Shown here: positions 4,930 through 64,000 of the stretch, piece after piece
How the letters are laid out: every line of letters begins with the position of its first letter
Numbering within the stretch: position 1 is the first letter of the stretch
Assembly (NCBI GenBank): GCA_027625915.1
Contig: JANTQA010000036.1
Span: forward strand, 10,623,001 to 10,687,000
DNA: 64,000 nucleotides
Origin: Anaeramoeba flamelloides
Taxonomy: Eukaryota > Metamonada > Anaeramoebidae
Direction: 5' to 3'
Made by a program: the position numbers and the translations under genes
The notes under the pieces: generated by a model
Seen by the model: the letters and a program-made list of their open reading frames with translations, nothing else
Databases searched by the model: none
What the model was told of the DNA's origin: nothing

Positions 4930-7900
4930 TTAATTTTTAAGTCCAACATAAGGTCTACATACCACACCAACGATATTTCCTAATAGCCCACCAGCGAACC
5001 AAACATAGCCACTTACTGAAGCAGAAATCGAAGGAGAAGTCCATGCACCAACATTACAACCGTATGCCCACCTTGAACCAAATCCAAGTAATAACCCGGC
5101 GATTATAGCTGATCCATAAACTTTCCAGTTAGGGCGATAATTACCCTTCCCAAAGGTTCCCGTTACAGTTGCTGAAAGGAATGCACCAAGAATTATTGAA
5201 AGGTCAAGGACTATATAGTCGTTTGCAAAAAAGTGGGTAGGCAATGTTGAGTATTCTTGGAAATATTTCATTTTCTCGACATCAACATTCATAGCTCTTA
5301 AAGGCAATGCGATTAAAAAGGGGAATACACCCATTACGCCCCAAAAGTTACTTGTTGAAAGATAGAGAAAGACCTGTGCAATCGTAAGTAATATGCTTCC
5401 GACATAGATATCATGCTTCTTGGTAAAAATGTTTTTTACAACTTCCCTTTTTGCGTTTTTTGTATGGTTTGTAAGTAATGATTTCGATTCAATTGAATTT
5501 GATTTATTCCTTGCTATGTCGCGAAGCTTTGGAAACAGTTTCATTAATATCCTTTGTAAAAATTTTTCTTCAACGAGCCCATGTTTTTTGATTTCAATTG
5601 CAATTGTAATAATTCCAAGAATGAGAAATACAAAGGTTTGGAAAATGGTACCTCCTGCAGTACCCCATTTTTCAATCAAATTTATTCTTCCTTCAGATTT
5701 CGCTTTAAACCAGACATTAAAACTCCAGTCAAGTGCCGCGATAAAGGTTCCAACAATGAAAAAGATAAAGACAATCAATGTTCGAACAATGCCAGAACCA
5801 ACTTCATGTAAACACCCTTTTAATAAGTAAAAATAATTAGTCATGATATATTTAATTAAGGTACATTTGAAATGCTTTATAAAATTTGAAAAATAAATTA
5901 TTTTGTTTCCAAATTTGTTCTTAAAATAGTAAAATCTGATTTTTTAGAAGAACAACATTTAAACCTTAACAGAGATATTTTTTCGATATTTACTTGTGTT
6001 TGACTTTTTAAAAGGAGAACAAAATAATTTATATTCATTTTCTTTGCTTTTCATTTAAGTAAAGCTTTTAAATTTAGAATTCTTAATATTAAACTCAAAG
6101 ATAATATGGTATTGCGGATTTTATTTAAAGTTGCTTCTTTTAATTAAAATTTGATAAATGTTTAGAAAATTCTTTCTTTTCGATAGACCGTAAAGAAATG
6201 AAAACAAATGAGACAAATTTTTTTTTTTTTTTATCACATTAAAAAGAATTCAAATAAGTGCTTTGAATTGGTTAATTTTTTTTTTTTGTGATTCAATTTA
6301 TGCTTTGTATGAATTGGTAAAAAATTAACAATGTAGAATTGTTGTTGCGAAAAGAAAAAACTTTCTTTTAATTTTGGCTGTGGTGCGCTTTTAAACATAC
6401 CAACTTTTTTGTTTTTTTATTTGTTAAAAATAATGTAACAAGCACCATTGGTGTTTGACAATTTTAAACAAGTCAATACGATAAAAATAATTTTGGTTGA
6501 TTTTACGATGAACGCGGTTTTTAAGATTTTACAAAAGTGTGAGATATTGAAAAAACAAAACGAAAAAAAATCTTTTTCTTTTTTAGTAACAAATAAAAAT
6601 TTCAAAAAAAAAAAATAAAACAAAAGGGTGGAAAACAATTTAGAAAGTCTATTAATTAAAAAATTAATGTTTTGAATTACCCTTAAAAATTTTATCAGGA
6701 AATTTTAAATTTTTAAAAAGTGAATTGTTTTTAAAAATTGTGAGTCATATGAAAAATTTTAATAACTTTTTAATTATCATCTTTCCAAGAAAAAACCAAT
6801 TTGATGTTTTTTCAAGCTTAAATTATTTGAATTTGACTTAATTACAGCGTTTAAGTTATCAACGTCTACTACAAAGAAGTCTAAAATTAAAATATGTTGT
6901 AATCGAATCTAAATAATAATAGTAATCTCTGGCTAAAATGACTCTAAAAATTTTATTAGTAAAATAGTACTATTTGTTGATCTTGATCAATTAAAAAATG
7001 ATCCATTATATGAGTAAAAATAACAACAATTTTCGAAAAAAAATCTGTATTTCAAAATAAATATATAGACTGAATCATCAATACTCAGACTTCAAAATTG
7101 AAAAATTATATTTCTTCAATTTGTCTCAAAATGTAGATTAGTCGCTAAAAAATTCAATTGTTTTTAAAAATTAAATAATTCATCAGGGATTATTTTGACA
7201 AATTATTTTCAAATATTGAAAATATATTGAAAAAACAACTAAACTATATTCCAAAAATTTGGGCACAGTTTAAACAGTTGAAAGAATAGCAATACCACAC
7301 TTTAGGTTCAATTTGGAAATAATTTTGATTTTTCAAATTGTTTCATTTTTTGTCTTTTTTGTTTTTTTTTTCATTTCCTTTTTTCCAGTTACGTAATTTG
7401 TTTGGTTAGATCTTGGAATTTTTTTTTATAATGGTTGATAGAAGGTTAGTGTTGAGTTTGTTTAATATAAAAATCACATACAATTGATTGATGGTATCTA
7501 TCATTTGATCGATCAATAATTGTTTGTAAAATTTTAATCAATTTACCAATACATTTTTTGTTCCGCTTGTTCATTTCATTATTTTGTACAAACCAATTTT
7601 GTATTTTTTGAGTTTTATATTTTTTTTCTTATATTTGGATGTAAATGACTACTTCTAAAAACATTAATAATATGTAACTTAAATGTGGTTTTATATTAGG
7701 TTTGGAAAAATATAATAAATTGATTTTTTTTTTTTGCCTATTTTTGATTTTGGGTGTGTCCAAATTTTTGGGGACCGATTTAGTTCCAAAAGAAAGGTAA
7801 CCAAAGCAATCAATCTTTTTGTTTTTTATAATAAGAGTTATTGAGTAAATCTTTAAAATTAAAAAACTGAAAAAATAGTTACTTTTTGAGGTTCTAAATA

Positions 7901-10900
7901 TTAATTATTAAATACTTTGATACTATTATTTTGATTTTAAAATTTAGATTAGAAAAAGTAATTAAAAAAAAATTCCAAAATAAAAATTGTTATGTGAAAT
8001 CCTTAGCAAAAAATCTAATAATTTATTGTTCAATAATATTTATAATAGATTTTTTAGAGTCATTTGAACTATAGAGCGCCAATATGATTTACTTTTAATT
8101 ATAATATTCCTTAATTATAGACTTCTTTGTAGAAGACGCTAATACCTTAAAATTAAAAATTAATTACTATATTTTTTATTTTTTTTCCAATTTTTCCCCT
8201 GGCTGAATTTTCTTTTTATTGGGGAAAATAGTTACAAAGGAAAAAAGATCAAGTGATTACTTGCTAATACTGCGATACTGAAATATGGGTAATATGAGTC
8301 ACTTGAAAATCTAAAAAGCAAAAGGCAAAAATGACCAAATGGTTAAAGCAAATTCAATCAAAAAGAAAAAATAAATAATAACAATTAACAACTACCCCCC
8401 AAATGAACATTCAGGTGTAACTATCAAATTATACTGAATTCAACCAAAAGTATCGTGGCAGTGATTTTGAATGTTCTTAATTAAAGATAGAATTGACTTT
8501 TTTTTTTTTTTGATTTTTTACTGATTGCTTCTTAGAATCCATTTTAAATATATTTTCTTTTTCTTTTTCTTTTTTTCTTGTCAATTTTTAGTTTTAGCTT
8601 TTAAACCATAAAGATAATTTGGGTGTTTCTTATTCATGAATAACCGTGGAATCTATGATTTTATGCTTAAATTACCTTTAAGGAAATTTAAGTAAAAGAA
8701 TATTCAGAGTGTACTTTACACTTCTTTAATAATAATAATAATAATAATAATAATTAAATTTTTAATCATAGCGACTATTTCAATAATAGATGTGGTTCTC
8801 AAGTTTTTATTTTTCTATTTTATTTTTATTTTTTAGAGTTTAATTATTCGTTGGGGAAGGGGATAAAAAATATTTAAATTCTTGTTACAATTATGTAATC
8901 ATTTAAATAAATAAGAGAAGAAATAAATCTTTAGTAATTATTATCTAATATTATAATTTCAAAATGTTGATACTTCTATTTTTGTTAGAAAATTATTCAA
9001 ATATCTTTAAGTTTTGAAATTAGAATTATTAGTTTCTCTTAAGAAATATTTGTTCATTTTTATTTGCACTATTTCGCCAATTTTGATAAATCATATCAAT
9101 TAACATAATTGTTTTTCTTTGATTTTTTTAAAAAATAAGAAAACTCAATATTATAAGTTTTGTAAGATCAAAATAATTCATATTTTTTTTTTTTGTTTAA
9201 ATTCGATCGTTCTCGCACATTAATCTTGAAAAAAACATGAATTAATGATTTTCCATTGTTATAAATATTTTTTTATATTAAAAAATATAAATTATAAAAA
9301 AATATTTTTAAAAAATTGTGATTTATTTTAAGAATTTTGAAAATTTAAGATATAAACTCCAATTCAAAATTTTTAACACAGCAAAAATCATTTTTTGAAA
9401 AAAAAAAAATCTTATTTAATCAATTATAGAAGAAATACCAAATTAGAACCATTCGTTTAATATTTGAAATGCTAACAATTATTTAGAAATTACAATACTC
9501 GCAAAACAAAAAATAAATAATTATCAATTCTAATAAATTATCGGTGTGTTAAAAATTTTGGATATGGGCAAAAAAAAAAAAATACATTGATAAATTTGTT
9601 TAAATTCTATTAGGATTTTTGATCTATCAAATGGTTAGATACTACCAACTAATTTTATTTGAGTTCTTCTATTTTGAACAGCCCAACTTAAATTAATACC
9701 AATGGTTGAAAAAAATATTTCGATCGAACGAAACAATTTACGTAATTCAAAATATGAAATGAAAACAAAAAACTAAGATGAAAAAATGATTTTCATATTT
9801 TTCAAAAATGAAAATTATTTCCAATTTGAATAAAATTGTATTATTGTGATTCTTTGGACCGTTTTAACTGTGTGGAAAATTTTGAATTTTAGTCTATATA
9901 TATATATATATATGAATTTTCAGAGCACTTATTCTTAATCCTATAAAAATTAAAAGTCCAATTGTTTCTGAAAAAAAAAAAAAATTATTTGTAACACTAA
10001 GAAAAATAAAGAAAAAGAAAAAAATATAAAAAACAAACCTGAAGCACAAGCACTATTTTTTGTGATTTCCAAAATGATAAATATATTAAGAAAGGGAATA
10101 AAATGGAAATTTAAAAGAATAAATAAAAGGAGAAAAAGAAGAAGAATGTAAATTAATTTCTGAAATTTGAGAAAAATAAAAATGTCCAATAATTTAAAAC
10201 TCTCGAAATAATACAATATTTTTAAATTTCGGTTTTAGGAAATTTCATTTCATATAAAACAATATTATTTATTATTTGTTAATTATTATTCATTATTAAT
10301 AATGGCGATTTTTGTCAGAAAATTTCCGTTTTCGAAAAATCACCAGTGATAATATAATTAATTATACTCAACAAGTATTGAGTTGAGAAATATTTTTGAT
10401 ACTGATAAATTCAAATAAATGTTTGAAAAATTTTTACGTAATTTTCCATTTATTTCAAATTTTTTTACACAAGCTTTGAATCATGAATTTTAATGTTAAG
10501 AAACTTTGTAAAATTAGTTGACCTTCAAAATATTCTCTCTGAAGAGTTGTTTTAAAAGTTGAAGTTATAAGATTTAAACAAAAATTGAAAATTGAATAAA
10601 AAATTTTTATCTATTTATTTGAATTTATCAGTAATTAGAAAAAAAAGAAGAGTGGAAACTCATAAAATATATTTTTATTTTTTACATTTTGTTTTTTTCT
10701 AATTTTGAAATTTAGACTGTATTCAAGAAAATGTTGCAACAAGGAAAAAAAATTTTTTATATGAATGAAAAATAATTCGAAAAATATCGTGAAAATTTTT
10801 ATCCCTTTAAATTTAAATGAGTTTGAAATAAGTTCTCTTCAATAATAAGGTCATTTAAAAGGGTAGTTCCAACAAAATTTTTAATGGGGCCCGAAGAGTA

Positions 10901-13391
10901 TCTCTATTAAATTTTATCAATTATTTTTATAGATACTATTTAAAACTTTTTAGTCACGCTTTTTTACAATGACTCTCATAATAAATCTAAACTTTTGGGA
11001 AAAAAAGTTAAAAACACGATTTTTAATTGGTAATGCTTAATAGAATCATAGAAAACAAAAAAATGAAAAGTAAAATCAATTCAAAGAAACAAATTAACTT
11101 GAAAGAATAATTCATTATATTATTTTCAATCAAATTAACAAAAGCCATTTAAATTCCCTTTTGATTATCAAAATCCGAAGAGTGGTTTTTGGAGATCTCA
11201 TAAATTGTCAAATTTTTTCAACAATTTTTTAATTATTCATCAATCAAATAAAAAACTCCTTACCGAAAAAGACAGTGTTGAAAATTTTTATATTGTGTTG
11301 AATACTCTATTTTGTCTTTTAATAATTGATTTTTTCTTTTATTTTTTGATCTTACTTTTCATTTTCAGGTTTCTGTGGTTTTTGTGATTTCTGTGATTTC
11401 TGTGATTTCTATGATTTCTGTGATTTTCGAGATTTTTGAGATTTCTATCAATGTTCCAAATTAAAAATCGTGTTGAACTTTTTTTCCCTTATTTCACTTT
11501 TTTTCCCAAATGGGAAATAAATTTATTTGTATTTTGTTGTATTGTGTTCTATTTCAATTGTTTTATTAAAATTAAAAAAGCCATTAAAGATCAATTGCAG
11601 GGTTTTTAGGAGAAACATACACATGGTTATTAAATTCTCGGATTTCAAAAAGTGATAGGAATTATATTTAATTAGCTATCAATTGTTAATTATTTCTGAT
11701 TTCAAATTCAGAATGTTTAATGGTATAAAATTCTTGGTTAAAACAGATTTGTTCAATAAAACGGTTTATTTTATAAGAGCAAATTGTTTTAAAACATTCA
11801 CCATTGCTTAATTAAATTTCCAATTTGTTTACACAACAATAACTGTCAAAATATTGGTTTGAGAGAATTCAATGATCAATTTTTTTTTTTTTTTTTTCAG
11901 TTAATTATGCAATAATTGATCCCTAATCTCAAGATCGTAAAAGTTTTTAATTGAATTTCTTTTATATAAAATCCGAATGTGATTTTAATAAATGAAACAA
12001 AATGTAAAGAAGTTGATTGATGACTTGCAATTTATTAGTATGTTGAAAAGTTTCTGAAAGCGAAAGAATGTTCATAAATCTTTTTGAGATAAAGTATTAT
12101 TAATTGCAAAATAAAAAGATCAAAATTTTCATTCAGCTTTCCAAAAAAATCATGCAACAGTAAATTTTAACAAACCATCAAAAGTCCCCAATTCTAAAAG
12201 GTAAATGAATAATTTAAACTGACTAAGGAATTAAAAATTTGAAATTTTACAGGTTTTTAAAACCTTTTTTTTGGAAAGCTGTATGAAAATTATGTTCTAT
12301 TTATTTAACAACAAATAGTAATCTTGATTTTTCTTAGCTTCATTTTTGAAACTTTGAGATAAAATTGATTATTTTTAATTTGAAAAAAACAGTAATTAAC
12401 TATTACTGATAAATTCTAATAAATCTCAAAAAATTTTTTTGTTAATATTTCCATTTTTATAAATCTTCGAACTGTTTCTTATCAAAACAGTCCAGGACAA
12501 AGGACATTTTGAACAACAACCAAATTTTCAAAGTTTCTTAACATTTAAACCAATAAAATACTTTCTTCAAAGCTTGAGCCTAAAAATTCCAAAAAGGAAA
12601 ATCAAGTAAAAATTTACAAACTTAAATTGCAATTTATCAGAATTAAAAATTTGAAATTTTACCTGATTTTAAAACCTTATTTTGGAGGTATGACTCAAAA
12701 TTTTGTTCCATTTGTTTTCCAACAAAAAGTATTTGTAGCAAATTTGTTTTTTTTAACAAAAGGATTGATGTTGCACATTTAAGAAAGTTAATTCAAAAAA
12801 AAAAAAAAGTATAGAAAAGAAAGGAACCAAACAACAATTGAAGTGTCTGAATTCCCCATTAAAAAGAAATAACAATTACCTCCCAATTTGCATACCGATA
12901 CCAAAGATGAAAGATCCAAAAAAAACAGTCCAAGAAACAGGAGCTGCGCTGAGGTGAAGCTCCTTTGTTTTGTCGGTCCAGCTTTTGTGGTTAGGGCTTG
13001 CAGAAATGATAATACTTAAGATCCACATTGTCAATGCAAACATCGTAATTAAAGCACGGAAGTTTTTGCCTTTGCGATTGGCAATTAGATTACGAAATGA
13101 AGACGTATACCCAAACTTACATTGGGAAAGAGAAATACCAAAAAGCAAGCCAATTACCAGAATCACAATTTGCCGTCCGCCATAGACTTGTGAAAAAGAA
13201 AAAAATAAAATAAAAAACACAACCAATAAAAGTGGAAAGATGATCATGAATTTAAAGTTGATTTGGCCATAAGGATCTGTTATCTTTTTTTCATTACTAT
13301 TGATCCCAGAGTCTGATGTTAGTGGACTAGTTGAACTAAAAAATCCTGTTCCTGTAGTTGAACTACTACTAAGTTCTCCAACAAGTGACAT
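4930..13391 (-). CDS. YeeE/YedE-family sulphur-compound transporter, 3 exons including a 14-nt microexon
   Basis: Polytopic membrane protein of the YeeE/YedE (Sulf_transp, TsuA thiosulfate-uptake) family, about 470 residues. Exons on the minus strand: 13391-12880, 10052-10039 and 5816-4930. Exon 1 starts at ATG 13391; the upstream TTG at 13412 is not a credible start. After a Ser/Thr-rich N-terminus, exon 1 carries hydrophobic segments, SQCKFGY (Cys about 91) and FGIGMQIG, and ends in phase 2 at GGGAG|GTAATT. Exon 3 starts in phase 1 at AAAAG|GG TGT and carries GCLHEVGSG, further membrane segments and SRWAYGCNVGA (Cys about 429). Direct joining breaks the frame. A 14-nt exon TGCTTGTGCTTCAG, flanked by AG and GT, restores it and gives MQIG-SACASG-CLHEVGSG, matching the family's conserved G-C-A-S-G core. 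Three cysteines at the expected places support a transport role. Introns are about 2.8 and 4.2 kb, filled with repeats. A bacterial origin for the family in protists is likely but untested. Confidence 0.85.
7242..7780. mobile_element. R1 MITE (TA target), copy 1, inside transporter intron 2
   Basis: About 540 bp flanked by TA on both sides (7240-7241 and 7781-7782). The left end, AACTATATTCCAAAAATTTG, is inverted at the right end, with CCAAATTTTTGG visible. The interior shares long blocks with copies at 37.7, 42.0 and 55.8 kb, including AGTTACGTAAT and GATCGATCAA. No transposase. TA target plus TIR of about 25 bp fits the Tc1/mariner group. Confidence 0.8.
8727..8752. repeat. AAT trinucleotide microsatellite
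   Basis: Direct array of about nine AAT units in the second transporter intron. It is non-coding here, but the same triplets encode the poly-Asn tracts of neighbouring genes. Confidence 0.7.
9355..9894. mobile_element. R5 MITE-like element, copy 3, inside transporter intron 2
   Basis: Best preserved copy, 540 bp, with TA at 9353-9354 and 9895-9896. The left end AACTCCAATTCAAAATTTTT is inverted relative to the right end AAAATTTTGAATTTTAGTC. It sits only about 145 bp from the 14-nt microexon. A TA microsatellite follows at 9895-9913. Confidence 0.75.
10039..10052 (-). other. 14-nt internal microexon of the YeeE/YedE transporter
   Basis: On the minus strand this reads ...AATAG|TGCTTGTGCTTCAG|GTTTGT. 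Spliced between phase-2 exon 1 (ends AG) and phase-1 exon 3 (starts GG), it gives the codons AGT GCT TGT GCT TCA GGG, that is S-A-C-A-S-G. Its length of 14 is exactly 2 modulo 3, as the mismatch between the flanking exons requires. It fills the position where YeeE/YedE proteins carry their conserved GCASG core. The donor GTTTGT is weak; the acceptor has little pyrimidine tract. Evidence is by sequence only. Confidence 0.8.
10370..10560. repeat. R10 dispersed repeat, copy 1
   Basis: The block around GATACTGATAAATTCAAATA recurs in the same order at about 35.84 kb (there with AATACTGATAAAGTCAAATA), followed in both by related AT-rich text including a GTAAAATKAGTTGA block. Ends are not defined. 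Probably a diverged mobile-element remnant. Confidence 0.45.
10987..11518. mobile_element. R9 inverted-repeat element with internal 9-bp minisatellite
   Basis: The left text TTTTGGGAAAAAAAGTTAAA followed by AACACGATTTTTAAT reappears inverted at the right as AAAAATCGTGTTGAAC followed by TTTTTTTCCC. The interior block GAAGAGTGGTTTTTGGAGAT is shared with a second copy around 13.9-14.26 kb. The middle holds a TTTCTGTGA tandem array. Non-coding. Confidence 0.55.
11364..11455. repeat. 9-bp minisatellite, unit TTTCTGTGA
   Basis: About nine units of TTTCTGTGA and close variants (TTTCTATGA, TTTTTGAGA) stand in tandem inside the R9 element. It is absent from the corresponding place in the 13.9-kb copy, so it expanded after the copies separated. 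Confidence 0.8.
12104..12319. mobile_element. R6 MITE, copy 1
   Basis: About 215 bp bounded by inverted repeats. The left is GCAAAATAAAAAGATCAAAA then CATTCAGCTTTCCAAAA; the right is TTTTGGAAAGCTGTATGAAA then ATTTAACAACAAATAGTA. Two further copies stand in tandem at 26.3-26.76 kb, and a right half lies at about 12.62-12.74 kb. It is in the first transporter intron. Confidence 0.65.
12620..12740. mobile_element. R6 MITE, partial copy (right half)
   Basis: Shares AATTAAAAATTTGAAATTTT and the following AAAACCTTATTTTGG...TTTTGTTCCATTTG order with the right half of R6. No matching left end was found, so it is truncated or strongly diverged. Confidence 0.45.
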
Positions 13392-16703: not shown

Positions 16704-19700
16704 TTAATCATTAAAAGAATTGTCTATATTAATTTGCCGATTAGTATCAGCTCCATGATAAAAACGGTTCCATTTTAATAATTGCTTAATATTTGTAGAA
16801 TTCTGCGCCAACGAAGATTTGATTGTTGTTAAATTTTTTTCAAAATCTACGAACTGTAATTCACGTAAAGAAATTTTCAAATTATTTTCCATCTTTTGGT
16901 TTTTCTCTAATTCTAACTGATCATAAATGGGGCCATATGATGCAGCGTTAACCAAGTTTTTGAGATCTGAACCAGAATAATTTTCTGTTAATTTGGCTAA
17001 TTTAATAAAATTAAAATCGGATTCCAATTTTTTCTTTTGTAATAAAATTTTTAAAATTTGTAATCTCTGCTCATAATTAGGCAAAGGTAGATAATATTTT
17101 TTATTAAACCTCCTAATTATGGCTTCATCTAAATCATAGGGTCTATTTGTTGATCCAATAATAATAATTTTATTTTTGTTAAAATGATCATTATTAACAT
17201 GATCCTGATCATCGTCGTCATTAATATCATTAAAATCATTAGTATCAAAATTTTGGCTTGCAATTTCAAAATTATTATGCGAATCGATTTTGGTATTCTT
17301 TTTATCAGAACTATTTTGATTACTTTTCAAGCAATCACAAAATTGCATAAATAAGTTTTTAATTTTCCTATTTGTTTCATTTCCCATTTGGGTATTTGTT
17401 CTTTTAGACAATAAAGAATCAACTTGATCAATAAATAAAACAGAAGGCGAGCATTTTTGAGCAAGAGAAAAAATTGCCTTGACATTTTTTTCTGCATTTC
17501 CATACCATTTGGAATATATTAACGATGGTGTGATCTTTAATAAAGTGACCTTGTTTTCCCGATCGTTGGATATTTCTTGAGCAAGGGCCTTTGCTAACAT
17601 TGTTTTCCCAGAGCCAGATGGCCCGTATAATAATACCCCCTTAAAAAAATTATTACTTTTCAAATTTCCTCTTTGGTACAATTCCGGCCTATTAAAAGGC
17701 TGTATTAAATCATCGAATAATTTGTCTTTAATACTATCCATACCTCCAATATTTTCAAATTTAACTTTCAAATTGTCAAGAGCAACATTCGCTTGCTTAT
17801 AAATTAATTTTTCCAAATTAGTAAAGTTTTTAAAGCTTATTGCTCCGTTATTTTTATTAGCCCTACATGCATTTTCATTCACACCCACATTACTCTTTTC
17901 ATATTTTACATTTAATTTTGTATTATTAAATAAATTTAACCCATAAATTAAATCATTTTTATTCAGATCGACATTCAAGTTTTTATTTTTATTAAAATTA
18001 TTTTTTAATGAATTGGTAATTGAATAGCCAATAATGCAGTCCATTTCTTTTGGCGTATAAATATTATTTGTAAATAAATTACAATTTGTATTTAAAAAAT
18101 TTGAGTTTAAATCAATTGCTTTTAAATTATTGCATTGGAAATTTAATAATAATTTATTTTGTTGCTGAATGTTATGTTTTTTTTCGATGTTTATTAAATT
18201 TTTCCAAATTTTTTTTTTTTTTTGGCTTGTTGGTTTTTTAATAAAAATTGATTGCCCAAAATATTGTGCAAAAAAATTTATTAATCTTTTTTCCCGGGCA
18301 TCAATAATTTTCATTAAAAAATTTTTTTGAATATTTTTATTTAAGATTATTGTAGTTTTTTCATTATTATCATTGCTTTTGTTGTTATTGTTATTGTTAT
18401 TGTTATTATTATTATTATTGCTGTTGTTACTGAGTATACCAATATCATTATTATTGTTATCTTTGTTTATTAATAACTTTCTTGAATTGTTTAATAATTG
18501 GAATTTTGCATGTTGATATTTATTAATTGATTTTAAAATATGTGCTGATTCCAATTTTGTTAATTTATGTTTCCCAGTTTCAATGCCACTAAAAATAAAA
18601 GCATTTGGATTATTACTAATTAAATTATCAATTTCAGATTTTATTGTTTCCAATATATGATAAGAATGGAATACAGATTTATCAATATTTGGGATAAATA
18701 GTAGAAAGGGCCGCCCACAATTTTTTAAAATATTAAAAAATTGCTTACAGAGGATTATTGGCAGGTCTTTGCTTCGTACGTCATCTAATTTCAAAATTTC
18801 ACCTTTTTTTACAAAATAGCAATTTCTTTTTGATTTTAGCCCGAGATCGCTTCCTACATTTGGAAGCGGGTCATCAAATTCAATTGCAAGATAAGACGAA
18901 GAATAACAAGACTCTGTGGGGAAACTCATGATTATTTTTCCAAACGCACCAGGCTTTGGCCCTGATAATAAAGTTGAATTTTGATTATTTTGCTTGCTTT
19001 TCTGTTGGCTATTGTGAAGCAAGGATCTAATCAATCGATCAGAATCAATTTTTTGAAAATCTGGTCCAATGTACATTATTCTCTCTCCAATTGAAAATTC
19101 TTTTTCTTTACTGTGTTCTTTTTCTTTTTCTTTTTCTTTTTTACAAACGTTTTCTTCTTCTTTTTCTATTTGTTTTTCTATTTCTATTTCTTTTTCTTTT
19201 TCAATTTCTTTTTCTTTTTCAATTTCGTTAACGTTTTCTTTTTCTTTATAAGTGCTATTGTTGTACTTTTTTTCAAATGTTTTAAATAACGGCAAAAGTG
19301 GAAGGAATTCCAGAAGACTAAATTTAAAGAATTGAAAATTAAATTCTTTTGAGAGGTATTTACATATCTTTTCTTGAATAAAGGTACAATTTTTCTTGCC
19401 AACGAAAAAATATTTCCGAAGATTATCATTCTGAGTGTTGTGTGAATTACGTTTGTTCTTCTCCAAGTGATGAAAGTTTAAATCATTATTAGAATTTAAT
19501 TTAATAATCATTTTTAATAATTTAAGAAGATTTTGAGGAAGATATTTCTCAAATTGGATCGCCTTGTTTTCGTTTAGCGATCGCTTTTCAATTAAATTTT
19601 CAAATTGTGTAATCAAAATCTGGTTGCAGAATTGCTTTTTAATTTCATTTCTTTTAAAAAACAGTAATTCCCGAGAGAAAAACTTGCTTATTTTGGGCTT

Positions 19701-20303
19701 TTTTGGGTTGAACTTTGAGAATTGCTTCTCGAATGAGGCAGTTTTCTTCAGGTTTTCTTTCGTTTTGTTAATAAACAATTCAGAAAGAAAAACAAACGAA
19801 TAGCGTTTGCCTTGATCACCGATGAACTCAAGATTGTCCCCGTCTTTTAAAATGATTTTGTGCCCCTTGATCAAAATGTTTCCATTTAAATACACCTTCC
19901 CTTCTTCCCCTGTCACTCTTAAATAACGATTTCTTGTAATCGCATCGAGAGAAATGTTCGACAGTGATCGGCTGAATTCTCCTTCTTGGCCATACAACCT
20001 GAAGCTCAGCTTTGGGTGCGATCCAAAAAAAAACGGTAATTTGCAAATTGGCACAAAGGATCGATTGCCATACAGAGAATAAAGCCTTCCATATTTGGGA
20101 CGTTCAAGTTCTCGTTGGGTAGAGTTGGACTGTACGTTAAGACCCCCGGGCTTGTAAAACAAGCGTTGCGTTTGGGGCGAGATTATTTTTGGTGACTGTA
20201 GCCTTTGCCTCTTGAACGAAAACTGCTTCAGATCACAAGTTTTTTTCGTTGAGCTTAAATTTGTCGTTACCACATTATTTTTTGGAGCAAATGGGTCGTT
20301 CAT
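16704..20303 (-). CDS. FHA-domain AAA ATPase (Msp1/katanin clade) with Walker B E-to-Q
   Basis: Single-exon frame of 1199 residues starting at ATG 20303 (MNDPFAPKNN). An FHA domain, expected to bind phosphothreonine, lies at about residues 70-180. Around 445-600 is a region like the degenerate first module of plant FHA-AAA proteins (LLSGPKPG, FDDPLP, GSDLGL, PFLLFIPNIDKS). The C-terminal AAA module has the N-linker ENIGGMDSIKDKL, Walker A GPSGSGKT (about 893-900), Walker B VLFIDQVDSL (about 953-962), sensor 1 GSTNRPYDLDEA and paired arginines IIRRF. The Walker B acidic residue that activates water is glutamine (codon CAA), so hydrolysis may be lost while ATP binding is kept. A KE-rich repeat (about 355-420) and a poly-Asn tract (about 630-650) are linkers. 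The 5' fifth is visibly richer in GC than the rest. Relatives include plant DAA1-like and ATAD1 proteins; the substrate is unknown. Confidence 0.85.
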   Translation of the reverse strand: MNDPFAPKNNVVTTNLSSTKKTCDLKQFSFKRQRLQSPKIISPQTQRLFYKPGGLNVQSNSTQRELERPKYGRLYSLYGNRSFVPICKLPFFFGSHPKLSFRLYGQEGEFSRSLSNISLDAITRNRYLRVTGEEGKVYLNGNILIKGHKIILKDGDNLEFIGDQGKRYSFVFLSELFINKTKENLKKTASFEKQFSKFNPKKPKISKFFSRELLFFKRNEIKKQFCNQILITQFENLIEKRSLNENKAIQFEKYLPQNLLKLLKMIIKLNSNNDLNFHHLEKNKRNSHNTQNDNLRKYFFVGKKNCTFIQEKICKYLSKEFNFQFFKFSLLEFLPLLPLFKTFEKKYNNSTYKEKENVNEIEKEKEIEKEKEIEIEKQIEKEEENVCKKEKEKEKEHSKEKEFSIGERIMYIGPDFQKIDSDRLIRSLLHNSQQKSKQNNQNSTLLSGPKPGAFGKIIMSFPTESCYSSSYLAIEFDDPLPNVGSDLGLKSKRNCYFVKKGEILKLDDVRSKDLPIILCKQFFNILKNCGRPFLLFIPNIDKSVFHSYHILETIKSEIDNLISNNPNAFIFSGIETGKHKLTKLESAHILKSINKYQHAKFQLLNNSRKLLINKDNNNNDIGILSNNSNNNNNNNNNNNNNKSNDNNEKTTIILNKNIQKNFLMKIIDAREKRLINFFAQYFGQSIFIKKPTSQKKKKIWKNLINIEKKHNIQQQNKLLLNFQCNNLKAIDLNSNFLNTNCNLFTNNIYTPKEMDCIIGYSITNSLKNNFNKNKNLNVDLNKNDLIYGLNLFNNTKLNVKYEKSNVGVNENACRANKNNGAISFKNFTNLEKLIYKQANVALDNLKVKFENIGGMDSIKDKLFDDLIQPFNRPELYQRGNLKSNNFFKGVLLYGPSGSGKTMLAKALAQEISNDRENKVTLLKITPSLIYSKWYGNAEKNVKAIFSLAQKCSPSVLFIDQVDSLLSKRTNTQMGNETNRKIKNLFMQFCDCLKSNQNSSDKKNTKIDSHNNFEIASQNFDTNDFNDINDDDDQDHVNNDHFNKNKIIIIGSTNRPYDLDEAIIRRFNKKYYLPLPNYEQRLQILKILLQKKKLESDFNFIKLAKLTENYSGSDLKNLVNAASYGPIYDQLELEKNQKMENNLKISLRELQFVDFEKNLTTIKSSLAQNSTNIKQLLKWNRFYHGADTNRQINIDNSFND

Positions 20304-23300
20304 TTTCTGTTGACTGAATGTTATCTTTTTTTAAAATGTTTGAATTGTAACGAAGTGGGATTTCTTGAAATTGCTTCTTTTATTTAATCAAAAAAAGAAA
20401 TAAACAAAGACAAATTATTGTTTTTTATTTTCGAGAAAAAATAAAATTAAACCTTTTTAGATTTTTATTTTTCGGAAAATACATGATATTTTGATCTCTT
20501 GGAGCGTTATCCAAGAAAATATTTCTTAAATTACGTACAACCCTCTCTAATTTTGTTTCTGAGAAATCACTCAAGCTTTGCCAAAACATTTTAAAAATAA
20601 ACTCAAGTTTTTAAAGTAATAAATGCCTTTGTTTACACTTTTCCATCGGAAGTCAAAAAATGAGGTGAGGAGGTGTTTTATTCAAGAAATGGAATTAGTT
20701 AAAATTTTCAACAATTGATTTTTCTTTTTGATGACATAAGTTAATTTGCACTTTTTTTCTTTGCTGATGAAAAATTGTCAAATTTTAATTTTCTTGGGTC
20801 TGTTTTGGAAACTAACACATCACCAATTAGTGTAAATACACACAACTATTATCATTTTTTTATAAATTATATGATAATGTAGAAAAAAGTTTTTTTTCTT
20901 CGAAATTGTTATTTTTCTTTGAAAAACCCAACTTTTTAATTTACTTCCTTTATTCGTTTTACAACAACAAATTATTTCTTAAAGCGAAAAAATTTATACA
21001 CCCAAAGATTTGATTTTATTTTATTTGATTTGATAGGCTAAAATTCTTGGGAAATTGAATAATTAGACATATTTTTCTGTAATAATTAATAAGTTTATTG
21101 AAATGTAAGCAATTCTTAGATCTTTTCTGATCCCCTCATTATCTTTTATCTATAATTAGAATGTAGAAAATCACTTTTCTTCATTTTTTTTGTTTTTGAT
21201 TTATAAAATTGTTAATTTCAATATTTTGTTTTAAAATAATTTTTTTTTTTATTTTATTTATTGTTTAATGTCTATCTGAATTTTATGTTATTATAGAACT
21301 AATATCTAATACTGTAAATAAAAAAAGTTGTTATAAAAGAATTTTTGTTAAAGGAAAACCAATATATTGCAGAAGTCTTGTTTTTTTGATTTTGATGACA
21401 ATTTATTGAAACATTTGAAGTTCCAAAAACCTTTTGGAATTCTTGGATAAAACAAGCTAAATTTAAAACAATATTTTTACTTTTTACTGGACTTACTTTC
21501 TATTTTATCTGAAAGGGCATCTAATTCAGTTTTTTTAAGCTCTATTATCTTTTAATATCGAGTCTAGCATACGAAAATTTTGATTTTAGAATCTTACAAG
21601 CTAAATTTCATATTTGTGTTGTGAAAATTGTTTTACCAAATAATAGAAATTTCAAAACAATCAATTTATATTAAACAAAACAAGATATCTTGACTCAACA
21701 TTTTTTTGAAATTAGTGAGTAAGTAATTTAGCAAATGTTATATTTATTTTAATAGAAATAATGTTAAAAAAGTTTGATTTTAGTGAAAATTTTAAAGGAA
21801 TATATATTTTACTCAAATAAATGTTAAAAAAAAAAAGAAATTTGATCATATATAAAATTAATGAACATTACCAATTTATTAAAAAAGTGTGTGATTTTTT
21901 GAAAAAAAAAAATTTAAAAATTTAAGAAAGTAGTTACATTTTCCCCTTTACAAAATTTTTAATTTCTATATTCTTACTGAACTATTTTTTGAGTGTAACA
22001 AGACATTTCAACTGTAAAATTAAAATACCATTTATTAAATTTATTTATTAAAAGAAAAAAGACAAATTTTTATAGAATTTTGAATTTTTATTTTTTTTTG
22101 AAAATTTCTTTTGATTAAATTATTTAGTAGGATAATAAGGTGGTTTTGAAAAAAGAAATGTATTCACAGTGATGATTTAAATTAATTAAAAAGATAAATC
22201 ATAGACCTGAGAAGGTATGTATTTGAAACGAATCTTTTCGATTTGAAGACCAAATACGAACGATCACCCATCCAGACAAACTTGTTGAAATCAAGAATGA
22301 AAAAAAAATCATTTTGAACAAAAAAAATATATTTGAGACTTTTTTTTTGTCTTTATCTTTATAAATTGGATGAAAATGTACAAAAGATTAACTTTTTTTT
22401 TCTCGTCCCAGTAATATTTTTTTTCATTTTTTCCAAATAAAACCTTTTTCATAAGATATTGATTTTCAAAAACCCATTCAAAATCTTTTTATCAAACAAT
22501 ACCATAATATCGAATACTGTTTCAAAAATTAAAATAAAGGAGTTGAATTCTTGGAATCAAAAAACAGTTACAAAAGATTCAACACAATATAAAGAGAGAA
22601 TTTTTAGAAAAAATTTAATAAATAATTCAGAATTCTTTTTAGTTACAATTAAATCGAAAAATAAAATAATCATCAAATCAAAGTAGGTCATCCAAAAAAT
22701 CTTTATTTCTAAAGAAGAATTTAAAAAACAACCTATTTTTCTCAAAATAAATTAAGAATTAGATAAATCAAAGAAAAATGGGATTTTTAAATTTATTTGT
22801 GAAATTCTTTTGAAATAAATAGTAATTTGTTTATAAAAATAATTACAAATAAAGTAGATTTTTCAAAATATTAAAAAAATGATATTGATGAATTAAATCA
22901 ACTTCAAAAAGTATTGCTCAAGAAAACGATAATATATATGAAAAATGAAAGAATTATTTAATCATTATTTGTTTTTTAGTTTTAATAATTAGATTGGTTA
23001 AATAATTCTTTTAAAATTAATGGACATAAGTAAATAACTCTAATTTTCGGAATGGGTATTTATAAATATTATAATTTCTTTAACCAAGAGTGAAAATTGA
23101 TAAATTTAATAAAAAATGGATTTTTAAATTCATTTTTTGGAAATTCTTTTAAAATAAAAATAATTTGTTTATCAAATATTTTACAAATAAATTTATTTTT
23201 CAATTTAGAATTAAAACAAAAAACAAGTAAAGAAGAAGCGGTTGTATCAACTATTAGAGATAAGATAAATAAATAAATAGTTTTTTTTTAATTTTTTTAA

Positions 23301-27715: not shown

Positions 27716-29275
27716 ACCTGAATTTGTATATTTTTTAACTATTTCAGGAATTTTTAATTTTGTATTTTTTATTTTCAATTTTTTATTTTTAATTGTTTCT
27801 TTATTCCCAAAAGTTTTGTAACCATAAGAGCTTTGATGAAAAATTCTCGACAAGAACAAAAAATTTAGTAATTTTGATTAGACAGATTAGAGAGTTTTTG
27901 AGTATTTTTCCTAAGGATATCAGTTTTATATAAGTTTTTATCGAAAAGTTTTGTTAATTTTTTTTTTTGTTTTGATTCTGATTAATTTATATCAAAAAAT
28001 CTGTATTACAAATTTATAATTAATCTATTAGCATATCTTAATTAATAATCAAATCCCTCCAAAAACGAAAATCAAATTTTTTTCAGGCACAAGGGGGTAG
28101 AATTATTATCTTTAATTTAATTCTATCTTTTTGCCAAAAATTAATCAAATCTCAAAACAATATATGAATAGTAAACCAAACTAAACTGAAAAGATAAACA
28201 AAGATTAGAAATCAAAAAAAAAAATAAAAAACTTAATCACTATAATGCTGTTATATAATACGGTATTAAATAATATGGTACTTTCTTGATATTAGAGACA
28301 AAAATGTAAATGCTTCTTTTTATACCTAAGCATTTTTAAAAAAATCGACCTTCTGTTTTACTTTTTTTTCTCCTAAAATGTTAATTCGGAACACAAAGTT
28401 TGATTTTTGAATCGATAGTCAAGAAAAAAGTTGTCAAGGTTGATTTTTTTCAGTGAAATAGTGAAATGATTAAGTTGTGTGAAGGGAAATAATGTGAAAA
28501 GTAAACAGATCTTTCCTCACAACAACATAAAATGATCTTTTTGTTAAAAAATTTCAAAAAGGAAACTTATTAATTTATTAAATGTGTGAAAAATGTTAGA
28601 TCTGTTTTCTTATAAAACCTTTTTTATTACTCATTTTGTTCATTTTCTCAAAATCAATAAATTGAAATAAATGAAACTTTGAAATAAAAATTTTTCTTTT
28701 CATTTTTTATCATAGTTCTGATGGACTAATATAATTAATAGTGAGTCCAATTGTCGATAAATCTTAAATTTTTTTCATTTTGTGGTCAAAGGACTTTTTT
28801 TCCAAAAATGTGTCAAATATGTTAGGAAGAGAAAATAAATATAACAAATGACAAACTTTAAAGTAAAAATCTGATCACTAATAATTTCTTATGTCAAGAC
28901 TATGTTTGATCATTATAAATCAAACTCTGAATTGACGGATTTCAAAAATGCAAAAAATGTTCACTGGTTTTCATAGGGATAGTTTCTTCTTCTTGATTTT
29001 ATATTTTTATATCTTCAAGTTACACGTTGAAAAAAAATCAACTTGTTTTCTGATCCCCTTAAAAACAATAACATGAAATTTCTGACAAAAACAAGATATT
29101 TTCAAATTTATAAAAATTGTGTGTTCAAGTAAAGTCTCAAAAAAAACCTATAAGTGATCAAGGAACACCAATAACAAGTGCAATAAAAAACAACCTCTTT
29201 CAATATTTCCAAAAATGTTCATTTTTTCATAAAACCACCTCAATAATAAAACAAAAAAAAGAGGGTATTTAATTA

Positions 29276-30961
29276 ATGCTGAATACAAATGTTCCAAGCA
29301 ACCTCGTTTTAAAACAAAAGCTATTGAGAGCAAATTTTAGTCAAAGTAAATATCCAAGTTACCAAGAGACGATCAAAGCGTTGTTTCGGCATCAATCTGT
29401 GAAAGCAAAGCTCACAGAATTGGAGCTCAACACCCACAACACGAAGGAAGAGCTTGCGCATTTTACAAAGACACTCGATCTTCAACAGGTGCTAGCGCGT
29501 ATTCCGACTCTCCACGTTGCAGGAACAAAAGGAAAAGGATCAACCTGTAGCTTCATTTCAAGAATTCTGCAGTCGGTTGGGTTAAAAACGGGATTGTCTA
29601 CAAGCCCACATCTTGTCTCGGTCAGGGAGCGTATCCAAATTAATAACGAGCCCATAAACGAGCAAGATTTCACCTCGCTTTATTGGAGGATCCGTGAGCG
29701 AATCGAAAAAAACAAAACAGACCGATACAAAATGTTGCCCTCCTTTTTCCGGTTTGTCACCATGATGTCCTTCCAACACTTCTGGGAATCCTGTGTCGAT
29801 GCGATGGTGATCGAGGTGGGCATTGGGGGGCGGTTCGATGCAACAAACATTGTCAGCCCTGACGTGTGTACGATCACCTCGCTGGGGATGGATCACCTCG
29901 TCAAGTTAGGTGGCAGCTTGGAACAAATTGCCTGGCACAAGGCTGGCATTATGAAGCCGGGTGTGCATTGCTTCACTGTGCCACAGAAATTAGAAGCAAT
30001 GAAGGTTTTAACGAAGGTTTCAAAGCAAGTCGGCGCCAAGTTAAGTGTGCCAAGGCCCATCGATCAAATGGTTAACATTTGGGAGAGCTCACCAAGGATC
30101 CAAGGCGTTCGGCAAATGTATCAAAACGGGAAATCTCTGGCGCTGTCCCTGCAGGGCGAACACCAGAAGATAAATGCGACAGCTGCACTGCACACAGTTG
30201 TTGAATTTCTTTCGAGAAGGTATGGAGTGATCGACGACCTATTCGGCATTGCGCCAAATAGCCGCCCAAACCATATACCCTGCATGGAGACCATCGGCAA
30301 ACAGAATACGTACACCCAAAATTGGATTTCCGCAAAGCAACAGGAACAACACCACCAGCGGCTTGTAATTCGAAACAAAGAAAAATTCCAATTACACAAG
30401 TCCCTATACAAGCTTCCCATTTCAACGCTAATGCCCCAAATCATTAAAGGGTTGGAAACAACCAAATGGGATGGCCGTTGCCAATTAATTAAAGAAAGCA
30501 ATCCCAAAAACTCTGCAATTATTAATTGGTTTCTTGATGGCGCGCACACCACAAACAGCATTAATTATGCAATCAAATGGTTTATGGGCATTATTAACGA
30601 TCGCCCACTTGAACAAAAACAAAACACAACAAATATACTTATATTTAATTGTATCGGCGATCGCGAAATTGAAAATTTATTAGAGCCCTTGTCAAAGTTA
30701 AATATCTTCCAGAATGTCATCTTTTCACCCAATTTAATTAAAAAGGCCTGGCATCTAGACAAAGACTTACAACAACTCATTAGCCAAATTTGGAAGCAAT
30801 TAAATGGAAAGGGGAAGATTTCAGTCACCGACTCCTTACAGAATACCTTACAACTCGTCGACAAGTTAACTTCAAAAAAGGAAAACGTAAATATTTTTGT
30901 TACGGGATCTTTGCATTTAGTTGGCGGCATAATGAAACTCCGCAAGTTAAAAAAAATCTAA
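29276..30961 (+). CDS. FPGS: Folylpolyglutamate synthase / Mur-ligase family
   Basis: Single exon, 561 residues, ATG 29276. It adds glutamate to folates, retaining them in the cell; bifunctional dihydrofolate synthase activity cannot be excluded. Signature motifs in order: the ATP-binding loop HVAGTKGKGS (about 80-89), STSPHLVSVRERIQIN (about 109-124), EVGIGGRFDATNIV (about 182-195), LGMDHLVKLG and WHKAGIMKPGV (about 225-235), TKWDGRCQ, FLDGAHTTNSINYA and TGSLHLVGG near the end. The protein is longer than the usual 430-500 residues because of inserts around 335-385. The N-terminus (MLNTNVPSNLVLKQKLLRAN) is basic and free of acidic residues, so an organelle-targeting leader is possible, by inference only. 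The first two thirds have near-balanced base composition, unlike the AT-rich 3' third and all flanking DNA. Confidence 0.93.
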   Translation: MLNTNVPSNLVLKQKLLRANFSQSKYPSYQETIKALFRHQSVKAKLTELELNTHNTKEELAHFTKTLDLQQVLARIPTLHVAGTKGKGSTCSFISRILQSVGLKTGLSTSPHLVSVRERIQINNEPINEQDFTSLYWRIRERIEKNKTDRYKMLPSFFRFVTMMSFQHFWESCVDAMVIEVGIGGRFDATNIVSPDVCTITSLGMDHLVKLGGSLEQIAWHKAGIMKPGVHCFTVPQKLEAMKVLTKVSKQVGAKLSVPRPIDQMVNIWESSPRIQGVRQMYQNGKSLALSLQGEHQKINATAALHTVVEFLSRRYGVIDDLFGIAPNSRPNHIPCMETIGKQNTYTQNWISAKQQEQHHQRLVIRNKEKFQLHKSLYKLPISTLMPQIIKGLETTKWDGRCQLIKESNPKNSAIINWFLDGAHTTNSINYAIKWFMGIINDRPLEQKQNTTNILIFNCIGDREIENLLEPLSKLNIFQNVIFSPNLIKKAWHLDKDLQQLISQIWKQLNGKGKISVTDSLQNTLQLVDKLTSKKENVNIFVTGSLHLVGGIMKLRKLKKI

Positions 30962-59650: not shown

Positions 59651-62600
59651 TTACTTTTTCGAAAAAAATTTATCTTTTGAAAGTAAAATAGAACCATAAT
59701 TATTCAAATAAGGATCATTATCTTTCTTGGCTTTCCAAATATTAGAACCAGATTTACTTGGAAAATGATTTTTTTGAAGTGATACAATCCGATTTGAAAA
59801 AAGCTTTTGTGGAATTTCGTCTAGTCCTAAGGATGAGTTTAAATTTTTTAGAATTGGATTTACATTTTTCTGTGTTTTTGGTTTATTATTGAAAATATTA
59901 CTGAAATGATTTTCTAATTGGAAATTAGTATTCATAATTTTTTGTTTTTTTGAAGTCACAGAATTGGATGAATTCAAACCCGAACCCGAACCCGAACCTA
60001 AACTAGAACCAGAAATAAAATTGGTATTGGAACTAAATTTAGATGTAAATGGTGGTGTGGCTATTGATGAAAATTGTGGGAATTTTTGATCTGTATTATT
60101 ATTTAATCGTGTTTCGTTATCGTAATCAATAGATTCATATCCATTCTCACTGGGCTTTTTAAAAAATTGCAGATTCTTTGAGGGTTTTGGTATTTTTTCA
60201 AAAAATGAATCCAAATAATTCTTATTTAATTGCTTATTTTGCTTTGGTTGCTGCTTTTCTTTTTCCTGAAGTTTATCCACTTTTTTTAAAGTAGGAACCG
60301 TAACTGGATCTCTATAGAAAAATGAAGGCTTTTTTAAACTTTCAAAGATATTTAATCCCGATTTTGGAAGAGAGGATGTTTTGGGGATGTTGGGTTGCAA
60401 ATTTAATGGTTGGTTTGTAAATGGTTGGTTTGTAAATGGCTTATTTCTTATAGGATTTGTCGGCTTTAAAAAGGTATTATTCATTGGAAAATCATTTAAA
60501 GAAAGATTATGAGATAATTGAAATTTTGGAGAATACGGTTGTTTGTTGTTTTTGTTTGAAATAAGATTTGTTTTTTCTTTTTGAAAAAATTTTTTTTCTT
60601 TTTTGTTGTTCTCAGCTGTTAAATTTGGGAAAATAATTTTCTTTAAATCTAAACTTTGTTTTGTTTTATTCATTTCTTTATTAGTTACTTCTTGTTTATG
60701 CTCATTATTTTGGTTTGTTTGTTTAATAACCTTTGGATTGCCTTTTTTAGATATATTTTTTTTATTTGGAACTTTATTTTTATCTTTTTTATTTATTTTT
60801 ATTTCATTTTCATTTGAATTTAATTTACTTATTTTGTTTTTTTCCCCTTTATTATTATTTTTTTCATTTTCATTTGATTTTTTTTTTATAGTTTGGCTTT
60901 TTGGTTTGCTTTTATTTTGAATTTCTTTTTTATTTTTTGTGTTGTTTTTTTTTTGAATTTCTTTTTTATTTTGCATTTCTTTTTTTATTTTGCATTTCTT
61001 TTTTATTTTGAATTTCTTTTTTATTTTGCATTTCCTTTTTTTTTTTAATTTTCTTTTTTTGTTCAATTTTCTTTCTATTTTCATTTTTCAAATTTTGAAT
61101 CTGATGGCCTTTATAATCATTGTCATTATCAATAATTTTCTTTTTAATTCCCTTTTCTTTGTCTTGTTGTATTAATTTATTATTCTTATCCGATGTTTGA
61201 GATTTTTTTAATTCATTGCTATTTTTTGTATACGCCAAGGAAAGTTCAATATATCTCCAATCCATATATTGATGATTTTTTTGTTTTAAAGCAATTTTTG
61301 CAATTTTTTGATTTTCAAAGGCAACAAAGGCATCTCCACTTACACGATCCCCAATTGTAATAATTGAAATCCCATTTTTAAGTATTTTAAACCCTTCAAA
61401 GAAAGTTTTAATTTCCCTTTTAGTTGTTGAAAATGGTATTCCCCTCATTCTTAACACTGCCCCATAAGGGAAATTTGAAAGGAATTCTTGTGTTTTTTGG
61501 ATAAATATTTGCTTTGCAGATAAAGGTTTTTCATATTGCGATGCAATGTTCATTCTACCAAAAAACATCCCGTTAATCATTTTCCCATTAACTTCATCAA
61601 ATGCTTTTAAAGTTGATTTCCCTTCTTGGTAATTTATAAAAGCACAACAAGTTTCTCTAATAATTCTAATACTATTAACTTTTCCGTATTTATAAAAAAT
61701 TTTTTGCAATTTGTTTTTTGTAAAATTTTGACCCACATTACCAATCCAAATTGTTCGATTATTTGAGATTTTCTTGGATTGTAATTTTTCTTGCTCTTTC
61801 TCTTTTTCTTGTTCGTTTTGTTTGCTTTTTTCTTTTTCTTTTTCTTTTTCTTTTTCTTGTTCCTTTCCTTTCCCTTTTCCCTTTTCTTTGGATTTTTCTT
61901 TTTTGATCTTATTTTTGTTTTCATTTTGTGGGTGTTTTTTTTTTTCTTTTTCGAATTTATTTTTCAGATCGTTATTTTTTTGATTTGTATCTTGAGTTTT
62001 GATATTTCTTTTCTTATTTTTTATCTTTTTCTTATTTTGTTTGTGATTTGATCTTTCAATTCCCCTTTCTCTTTCTCTTTTTTTTTCTTTTTCCTTTTTT
62101 TTTTCTTTTTCCCTTTTTGTTTGTTTTGGTTGTGCTTTTTCCTTTTTTCTTTCCTTTTCTTTTTCAATATTCAAATTTTCATTTCTTTTTTTCTTTTTTT
62201 CTATTTCATTTTTTTTTGTTTTCTTCATATTTCCATTTCCTTTACTATTCCCATTTTTTTGATTTTTTGTCGATGATTTCGCCAATTTCTTTTTACCATT
62301 TCCCCTTCCATTTTGCATTTCTTTCTTCTTCCCTCTCCCTTCTTTTTCTTTCTCTTTTTTAATTTTTCTTTCTGTTTCAATTTCCTTTTCTTTAATTTCT
62401 TCAATTTTTTTTTCAATTTCTTTTTCATTTTTTATGATTATTTCCTCTTCAATTTTTTGTTTCTTTTTCTTGACTTCCAATTCTTTAATATTTTCTTTAA
62501 TTTTTACTAATTCTAATTCCTTTTCTTTAATTTTTTCTCTTATAAAATTAATTTTTTCTTTTTGTTGTTGGTTAATTTGTTTATTTTTTTCATATGATTT

Positions 62601-64000
62601 CTTTAAAAATTTAATTCTTTTTTGTTTCTGTGCATTTAATCTACATGTAATCCCACTTAATACTAACTTAACTTCTCTATTTTTTTGACTAGCCCAGCGA
62701 TGAGATGGTAGAGGAATGATATTATATTCCTTCATTGAATATGAATATCTATAAAAATCTTCTAAACTCCAATAAAACAATTTACAAATTAAAACTTCTA
62801 ATTTTCTTTTATGTTGTCGAAATTCAAATTCTTCATTTGTTGTTTTATTATTTATCATTTTTAAAAATTCTTTATCTAAAAAATCTTGTTTTTTTTGAAT
62901 TGGTGTCTGAATTTTAGTTTTTAATTGCTGTTCAATTGTTAAATTTAAACCAAAATTAATAAACTGTTGAATATAGGTAATAATTTTTCTTTTAATTTCC
63001 TTTTCAAAAATTATTTTCGAAAATGTTAAATTATACTTATTGTCATTGTTATTGTTGTAATCATTATTTTCTTTATCATTGTTATTATTCTTATTGTTAT
63101 TATTGTTATTATTGCTATTTTTATCATTGTTATCGTTATTATTATCATTATTATTGTTGTTGTTAAATTGACTAATATTATCTTTATTATTATCATTTAT
63201 ACTATTTTCTTTATTATTATTATCATTATCATTATCTTTTGGTTTATTAATTGGATTAACATACGAAGATAAAGGAATAATATTTCTTAAATTATCCCTC
63301 TTCCCAGTTGAATTTTTTTTATTATTCTTATTATTTGATTGGTGAGGATTAACAGTAACTCTCTCTAATAAATGGAAAAAATTAAAATTATTTAATTTTT
63401 TTAAAATTATATTAATATGCTTTCTATTTTTTTTTTTTTTTTCTTCTTCTTTTGATTGTTTCCTTTTTTTAATTTTACTTTTTCCAAAATTTCAATCATT
63501 TTTTTTGATTCTTCTTTACAATTCTTTCCAATAAACTGTTTCAATACCACGTCTGGAATCGTTAAAATTTGCTGTGCATGTGGTAATGAACAATTACTTT
63601 TCCAAAAGGATAAAATTTTTGAATCATCAGAATTAATTAAATCCCAATTTACTTTTTTTTTATTAATTTCGTTTTGGCTTTTCGCTTGATGATCATTAAT
63701 CTCAATATTTTCGTTTAATTTTCTTTTATTATTCTTGTTATCATTTTTAGTATTATTCTTATTCTTATCATTATTCTTATTCTTATTCTTATTCTTATTG
63801 TAATTCTGATTATTCTTATTCTTATTCTTATTATCATTATTGTCTTTTGTATTATTTGAATGATTGTTATTTATGGAATTATTATTAAGCAAATTATTTT
63901 TTTTCTGTACTATTTTTAATAATTCTAAGGCATCTGTATTATTTTTATTATGTAATAAAATAAAATTTAAATCTTTTATTCCTTCTTGAAAATTTTTTTG
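59651..64000 (-). CDS. Large TPR / RPAP3_C-like / RRM / quasi-RRM protein, 5' partial, frame broken at two homopolymers
   Basis: Reads leftward from beyond the window end to the stop at 59651. In order: a TPR-like helix pair (QEGIKDLNFILL, TDALELLK; 63.9-64.0 kb); poly-Asn; a domain like the RPAP3/SPAG1 C-terminal module (ILSFWKSNCSLPHAQQILTI, then KHINIILKKLNNFNFF); long Asn-rich and Lys/Glu-rich coils; an RRM with WIGNV (RNP2) and a weakly matching RNP1 TCCAFINYQE; a quasi-RRM of the hnRNP F/H-ESRP type (VLRMRGIPFS, GDAFVAFE, RYIELSL); and a basic, Ser/Asn-rich tail ending LSKDKFFSKK. The frame changes at a 16-base A/T run (63427-63442), which falls inside the RPAP3_C-like domain, and at about 60981-60987, where one unit of a KKEMQN/KKEIQN repeat has seven instead of six T. 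Between 62859 and 63426 the frame is open without any ATG, so the ATG at 62858 is internal. A single gene with two one-base length differences is the best reading. Role probably RNA processing or a chaperone-linked RNP. Confidence 0.7.
60960..61060 (-). repeat. 18-bp coding tandem repeat (KKEMQN/KKEIQN)
   Basis: Units of GAAATGCAAAATAAAAAA and GAAATTCAAAATAAAAAA on the minus strand. All units have a six-base A tract except one with seven, and the hexapeptide repeat continues on both sides in different frames. This locates the frame change precisely and argues that both sides belong to one protein. Confidence 0.85.

Follow-up and report, generated by a model that had tools for sequence, protein, structure and literature searches.

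A putative 14-nt microexon encoding the cysteine core of a YeeE/YedE-family transporter in Anaeramoeba flamelloides

How can two long coding exons of one transporter gene be brought into a common reading frame when their phases do not fit each other? The question is raised by a locus in the window (the whole stretch of DNA analysed here, 64,000 nt, with a G+C content of 19-32% in 2-kb steps) from Anaeramoeba flamelloides; the genus is described in passages of PMC11550330 as anaerobic amoebae whose genomes are rich in A+T, have GT-AG introns and carry many genes acquired laterally from bacteria. The original prediction had proposed a 14-nt insert between AG and GT as the missing link, and its sequence, coordinates, strand, phases and frame all proved to be as claimed. 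The reading preferred here, and held with high confidence, is that of an ordinary three-exon Anaeramoeba gene, whose 14-nt middle exon would be spliced in to yield a 470-residue YeeE/YedE-family transporter.

Exon 1 (12880..13391, minus strand) is initiated by ATG and comprises 512 nt, that is 170 codons (residues 1-170) plus 2 nt; it ends with CAAATTGGGAG, followed by GTAATT. Exon 3 (4930..5816, minus strand; 887 nt including the stop codon) starts with GGTGTTTAC after AAAAG and needs one upstream base for its frame, so that the two exons are incompatible in phase and any insert between them must be 2 modulo 3 in length, as had been predicted. The microexon, TGCTTGTGCTTCAG (10039..10052, minus strand), is 14 nt long, with AAATAG upstream and GTTTGT downstream. 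It divides what had been described as one repeat-filled intron of 7 kb into intron 1 (10053..12879, minus strand; 2827 nt, GTAATT...AAATAG) and intron 2 (5817..10038, minus strand; 4222 nt, GTTTGT...TAAAAG); the repeat-filled character was borne out, three segments matching dispersed repeats, and the single intron has to be replaced by two. When 13391-12880, 10052-10039 and 5816-4930 are joined, the frame stays open for 470 residues and reads GMQIG-SACASG-CLHEVGSG at the junction, where the microexon finishes codon 171 and encodes A172, C173, A174 and S175 together with the first base of G176. The donors (GTAATT, GTTTGT) and acceptors (AATAG, AAAAG) are similar to those of three hand-read introns of a second family gene, L013 (GTTTTC..AAATAG, GTAAGT..TTTTAG and GTAAAT..AAATAG), a comparison of three introns and no genome-wide consensus; the 60 nt ahead of both window acceptors contain just 42-43% T. 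L013 (~1192) forms with L012 (~1239, reverse complement) a gene pair of another YeeE/YedE subfamily on contigs C32 and C34; in L012, splicing of intron 1 would depend on a GC donor (GGGTTT|GCTTTC), at a site where L013 has GT.

A second, homologous copy of the transporter gene, locus L009, resides on contig C24, the window copy being located on C37. Between the two copies, 491 of 512 positions of exon 1 and 830 of the 885 aligned columns of exon 3 are identical, and the L009 microexon, TGCTTGTGCCTCAG, retains 13 of the 14 nucleotides, the one change (GCT to GCC) being synonymous; both of its splice sites are kept. The exon, which with its 14 nt and its AG and GT flanks falls within the definition of a coding microexon (internal, ≤15 nt), was found at these two loci only, on what look like homologous chromosomes, and the exact motif with its flanks, AATAGTGCTTGTGCYTCAGGT, is present at the same two places only in the 254 Mb searched (76 contigs). 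In the joined coding sequence the differences fall on codon positions 1, 2 and 3 in the numbers 16, 8 and 54, dN is 0.020 and dS 0.205 (dN/dS ~0.1), and both joined frames are open: the gene is under purifying selection between the two copies. Against these values it is scarcely conceivable that we see a pseudogene in decay, with the microexon as a relic, a reading to which the heavy invasion of the introns by repeats would otherwise lend some colour.

The introns have followed a different course from the exons. Their lengths are 2827 and 4222 nt in the window vs 6139 and 658 nt in L009, and a collinear alignment by blastn (four collinear segments, the count omitting two short segments, one of them inverted) covers 1333 of the 7049 window nucleotides, such that 81% of the window intron sequence is no longer alignable to L009. 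The microexon itself lies in an alignable island (9908..10331, minus strand) with 350 of 441 columns identical; directly at its borders, identical columns number 24 of 26 on the upstream side and 10 of 10 on the downstream side, and farther away 77 of 106 and 84 of 106, respectively. Intron 1 harbours a dispersed repeat at 11000..11524, which may continue below 11000, the edge of the query. Intron 2 holds a further dispersed repeat of ~550 nt (9350..9900), with inverted arms at 9350-9387 and 9862-9899, and a terminal-inverted-repeat element (6850..8151), with arms at 6850-6965 and 8036-8151, inside which a very common repeat of ~530 nt is nested (7240-7771). Loose first-look candidates numbered 3888 for the repeat at 11000..11524, 10823 for that at 6850..8151 and 8691 for that at 9350..9900, 40 of each being scored, and the main matches are 76-89% identical. 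The two repeats with inverted arms appear MITE-like, and insertions of this kind would explain both the long introns and the differences in length between the copies.

The pairing extends to the neighbourhood. FolC, ~25 kb away, is paired across the contigs in the same way, with 93% amino-acid identity, so that the two contigs resemble homologous chromosomes which have diverged from each other. Several genes are present on C24 and C37 as collinear, diverged copies (L009, L016, L017), a second Sulf_transp pair among them, which suggests either that haplotypes were separated or that the chromosomes are homeologous. The FolC-like Mur ligase gene occupies 29273-30961 and runs for 562 aa in one open frame; in the PDB it matches folylpolyglutamate synthases, and a relative with 48% identity is found on C57. 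Elsewhere in the window, at 59651-63491 and 16704-20330, there are long open frames of 478, 841 and 1208 aa that contain poly-Asn or Lys/Glu runs; one of them has RRM domains and another an AAA ATPase.

A database search with the joined product returned as its best match the NCBI protein P0001, 'inner membrane protein yede [Anaeramoeba flamelloides]', which, like the product of the window, has 470 aa and the microexon-encoded peptide, GMQIGSACASGCLHEVG, within the stretch GMQIGSACASGCLHEVGSG, at 96% identity. P0001 matches the C24 copy, with 2 residue differences from the L009 product, whereas the C37 copy of the window differs from it at 18 residues. The next-best match is a Pseudomonas protein with 30% identity; among the matches listed (best 120 of 331), the other organism-named ones are all bacterial, and none besides P0001 carries the name Anaeramoeba. 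Since P0001 holds the same peptide, the public gene model already includes the microexon, and, given this full-length A. flamelloides model, the expectation of two truncated genes from standard ORF-based annotation is not upheld. P0001 may itself be a prediction, as the passages of PMC11550330 are silent on how its exons were called; the terms BRAKER, Augustus, EVidenceModeler, PASA and 'gene prediction' do not occur in its main text.

It could be argued that there are two genes or two transcripts, one with exon 1 and the other with exon 3, each coding for part of a transporter, and that the 14 nt stand between them by chance. Each piece alone indeed exceeds the cut-off of 27 bits of Pfam Sulf_transp (PF04143), with 34.9 bits for exon 1 and 94.9 bits for exon 3; half-size YeeE relatives, PmpB and PmpA, exist in bacteria according to passages of PMC11582611, and the window has an in-frame ATG upstream of exon 3. 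This ATG is missing in L009, however, whose open frame reaches just 8 codons upstream, and in either copy exon 3 has its first internal Met at residue 91. Exon 1 alone stops short of the conserved Cys, P0001 is one single protein, and the 14 nt and their splice sites are conserved while most of the intron sequence is not. Two separate genes are thus very improbable. Exon 1 matches profile positions 3-71 and exon 3 positions 79-310, with 72-78 absent from both; the joined 470-residue product, whose alignment to the profile had been proposed as a check, scores 153.1 bits and covers positions 3-310 of 310, which places it in the family.

A second objection concerns the insert itself, as the exons might be joined via a different or longer one, for instance one that begins at an acceptor farther upstream and ends at the same donor. 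The window intron offers 118 open in-frame AG..GT inserts of ≤150 nt (candidates being kept at least 30 nt from either intron end), and the reading frame in which the microexon lies has no stop between 10234 and 9950. Against this, a profile built from 119 bacterial homologues ranks the 14-nt insert first of the 118, with 214.9 bits and 202.2 for the next, and the homologous insert of L009 first of 61, with 209.5 and 196.3 bits, a preference of >12 bits in both copies; the ranking is partly circular, because the joined product had served as query in the search for the 119 homologues. The window CAG at 10162-10160 is no AG in L009, and P0001 has exactly the microexon-encoded residues. The spacing of the gap points the same way, being exactly 5 residues in 118 of the 119 homologues, the remaining one unmatched by the pattern. 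In the bacterial loci fetched by the exon-1 peptide patterns FIFGIGMQ and LYHAAFGF (the best 80 of 584 confirmed, in order of their similarity to P0001, a protein that itself has the microexon peptide), exactly 5 residues separate GMQxG and GxLxxxG in 80/80, and Cys is the third of them in 80/80. A junction through any other insert is accordingly a very slight chance.

Five open 14-nt AG..GT inserts are present in the window intron, and only TGCTTGTGCTTCAG has a Cys at the family position. When the intron was shuffled 3000 times with its dinucleotides preserved, 298 shuffles gave an open AG-N14-GT insert with a Cys at that position, and an insert encoding [GSA]xCxSG appeared in 1 of 3000; the match is beyond chance expectation. 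The three constraints invoked at the outset, phase, splice dinucleotides and family motif, do agree, and judged by its sequence the insert is very likely a real microexon, used in the mRNA. That it supplies the Cys-containing YeeE/YedE core, as had been proposed, is upheld by the open joined frame and by the sister locus and the NCBI protein, both of which carry the peptide.

What, then, would this core contribute to the protein? By its sequence the product is a member of the YeeE/YedE (Sulf_transp) family, to which YeeE/TsuA of Spirochaeta thermophila (PDB 6LEO, 8J4C, 8K1R) also belongs (phmmer). In the phmmer alignment, with residues counted by hand, Cys173 of the microexon aligns with Cys91 and Cys429 with Cys293 of S. 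thermophila YeeE, both of which are reported as indispensable for that protein in passages of PMC11582611; Cys293, Cys91 and Cys22 are placed along the thiosulfate path in passages of PMC11073785. Where S. thermophila YeeE has Cys22, the Anaeramoeba product has Gly94, with another Cys three residues earlier. A glycine also occupies this position in 113 of 119 bacterial relatives; the 6 remaining ones were unmatched by the pattern. Cys173, Ala174, Ser175 and Gly176 are invariant in 40 aligned proteins, a hand selection from the best 120 of 331 matches, in which P0001 is 29-33% identical to the 39 bacterial rows.

The comparison with TsuA that had been called for thus yielded a family match and equivalents of Cys91 and Cys293, two of the three TsuA cysteines (Cys22, Cys91, Cys293), and did not extend to TsuA identity. 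P0001 remains below the NCBIfam cut-offs for TsuA (NF052577, 54.8 of 400 bits; NF041049, 34.7 of 645 bits) and below that of the YedE/FdhT selenium-metabolism model (NF033796, 93.9 of 350). A search for a TsuB/YeeD (TusA-family) partner gave 0 PF01206 matches in the 254-Mb assembly, a search whose control was positive in 11 of 14 genomes and which an intron-split or very diverged gene could escape. With the cut-offs missed, Gly at the Cys22 position and no TusA/YeeD match, TsuA identity is unsupported, and the product is best described as a family member which probably moves a reduced-sulphur compound. A paralogous Sulf_transp pair, L010 and L011 (C37:6409354 and C24:19818193; 391 and 378 aa), matches the profile at 3-303 and 3-279 in a single open frame each, without a visible GMQxGxxCxSG core.

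As for the origin of the gene, a tree of 83 proteins, rooted at its midpoint, sets three Anaeramoeba rows, flagged for their odd letter make-up, off from the 80 bacterial ones by a branch of 7.7 changes per column; the sample is biased, because the 80 rows were fetched by the two exon-1 patterns as the best of 584 confirmed. On account of this very long branch no bacterial donor can be named from the 83-protein tree. The gene is of bacterial type, so if it came from bacteria both introns would have arisen in the eukaryote, 14 nt apart, and would later have been enlarged by MITE-like insertions.

In the proposed course of events the spliceosome would remove the 2.8-kb and 4.2-kb GT-AG introns and include the 14-nt exon in the mRNA; the microexon would thereby restore the frame and supply the residues around the second pore cysteine (the Cys91 equivalent), and the mature product would be a membrane transporter of 470 residues, probably for a reduced-sulphur compound. 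We infer the actual splicing, the transport activity and the substrate alike. Without the microexon the predicted product ends after 174 residues, and with intron 1 or intron 2 retained it would comprise 171 or 204 aa, respectively. One may go further and regard the microexon as a regulated switch: the gain of introns 14 nt apart in a laterally acquired transporter would have made the pore cysteine a separate splice unit, skipping or intron retention would shut the transporter off, and a host of sulphate-reducing symbionts would in this way set its sulphur uptake by splicing. We consider this extension unlikely.

Microexons of this size are already known, and this one is already contained in an NCBI protein. 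Small coding microexons of ≤15 nt occur in plants and are often missed by annotation, as stated in passages of PMC8831610. They resemble the present case, as described there, in being internal coding exons of ≤15 nt that are conserved between copies and encode important residues; the present case differs from them in its anaerobic amoeba lineage, in its repeat-enlarged introns and in a public model that includes the exon. Among the papers listed, none was on microexons in Anaeramoeba by its title or the beginning of its abstract. Each of 30 Ras-family loci, fetched for a survey of exon lengths, covers the full domain (1-161) in a single frame. The Ras/Rab family as such is very large, with 1782 first-look candidates, of which 150 were scored; ten of the matches listed have one in-frame stop each.

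The locus is a clear example of how comparison can recover a microexon, here from a bacterial-type gene of an anaerobic protist. Gaps in a family profile, taken together with exon phase, can find such exons, a practical message that is modest, as the public record already had this one. Beyond this, the locus illustrates that as few as 14 nt of coding sequence can survive where repeats have taken the place of most of the intron around them. If the gene is a lateral acquisition, it also shows that a residue essential for function can be set apart by the gain of introns.
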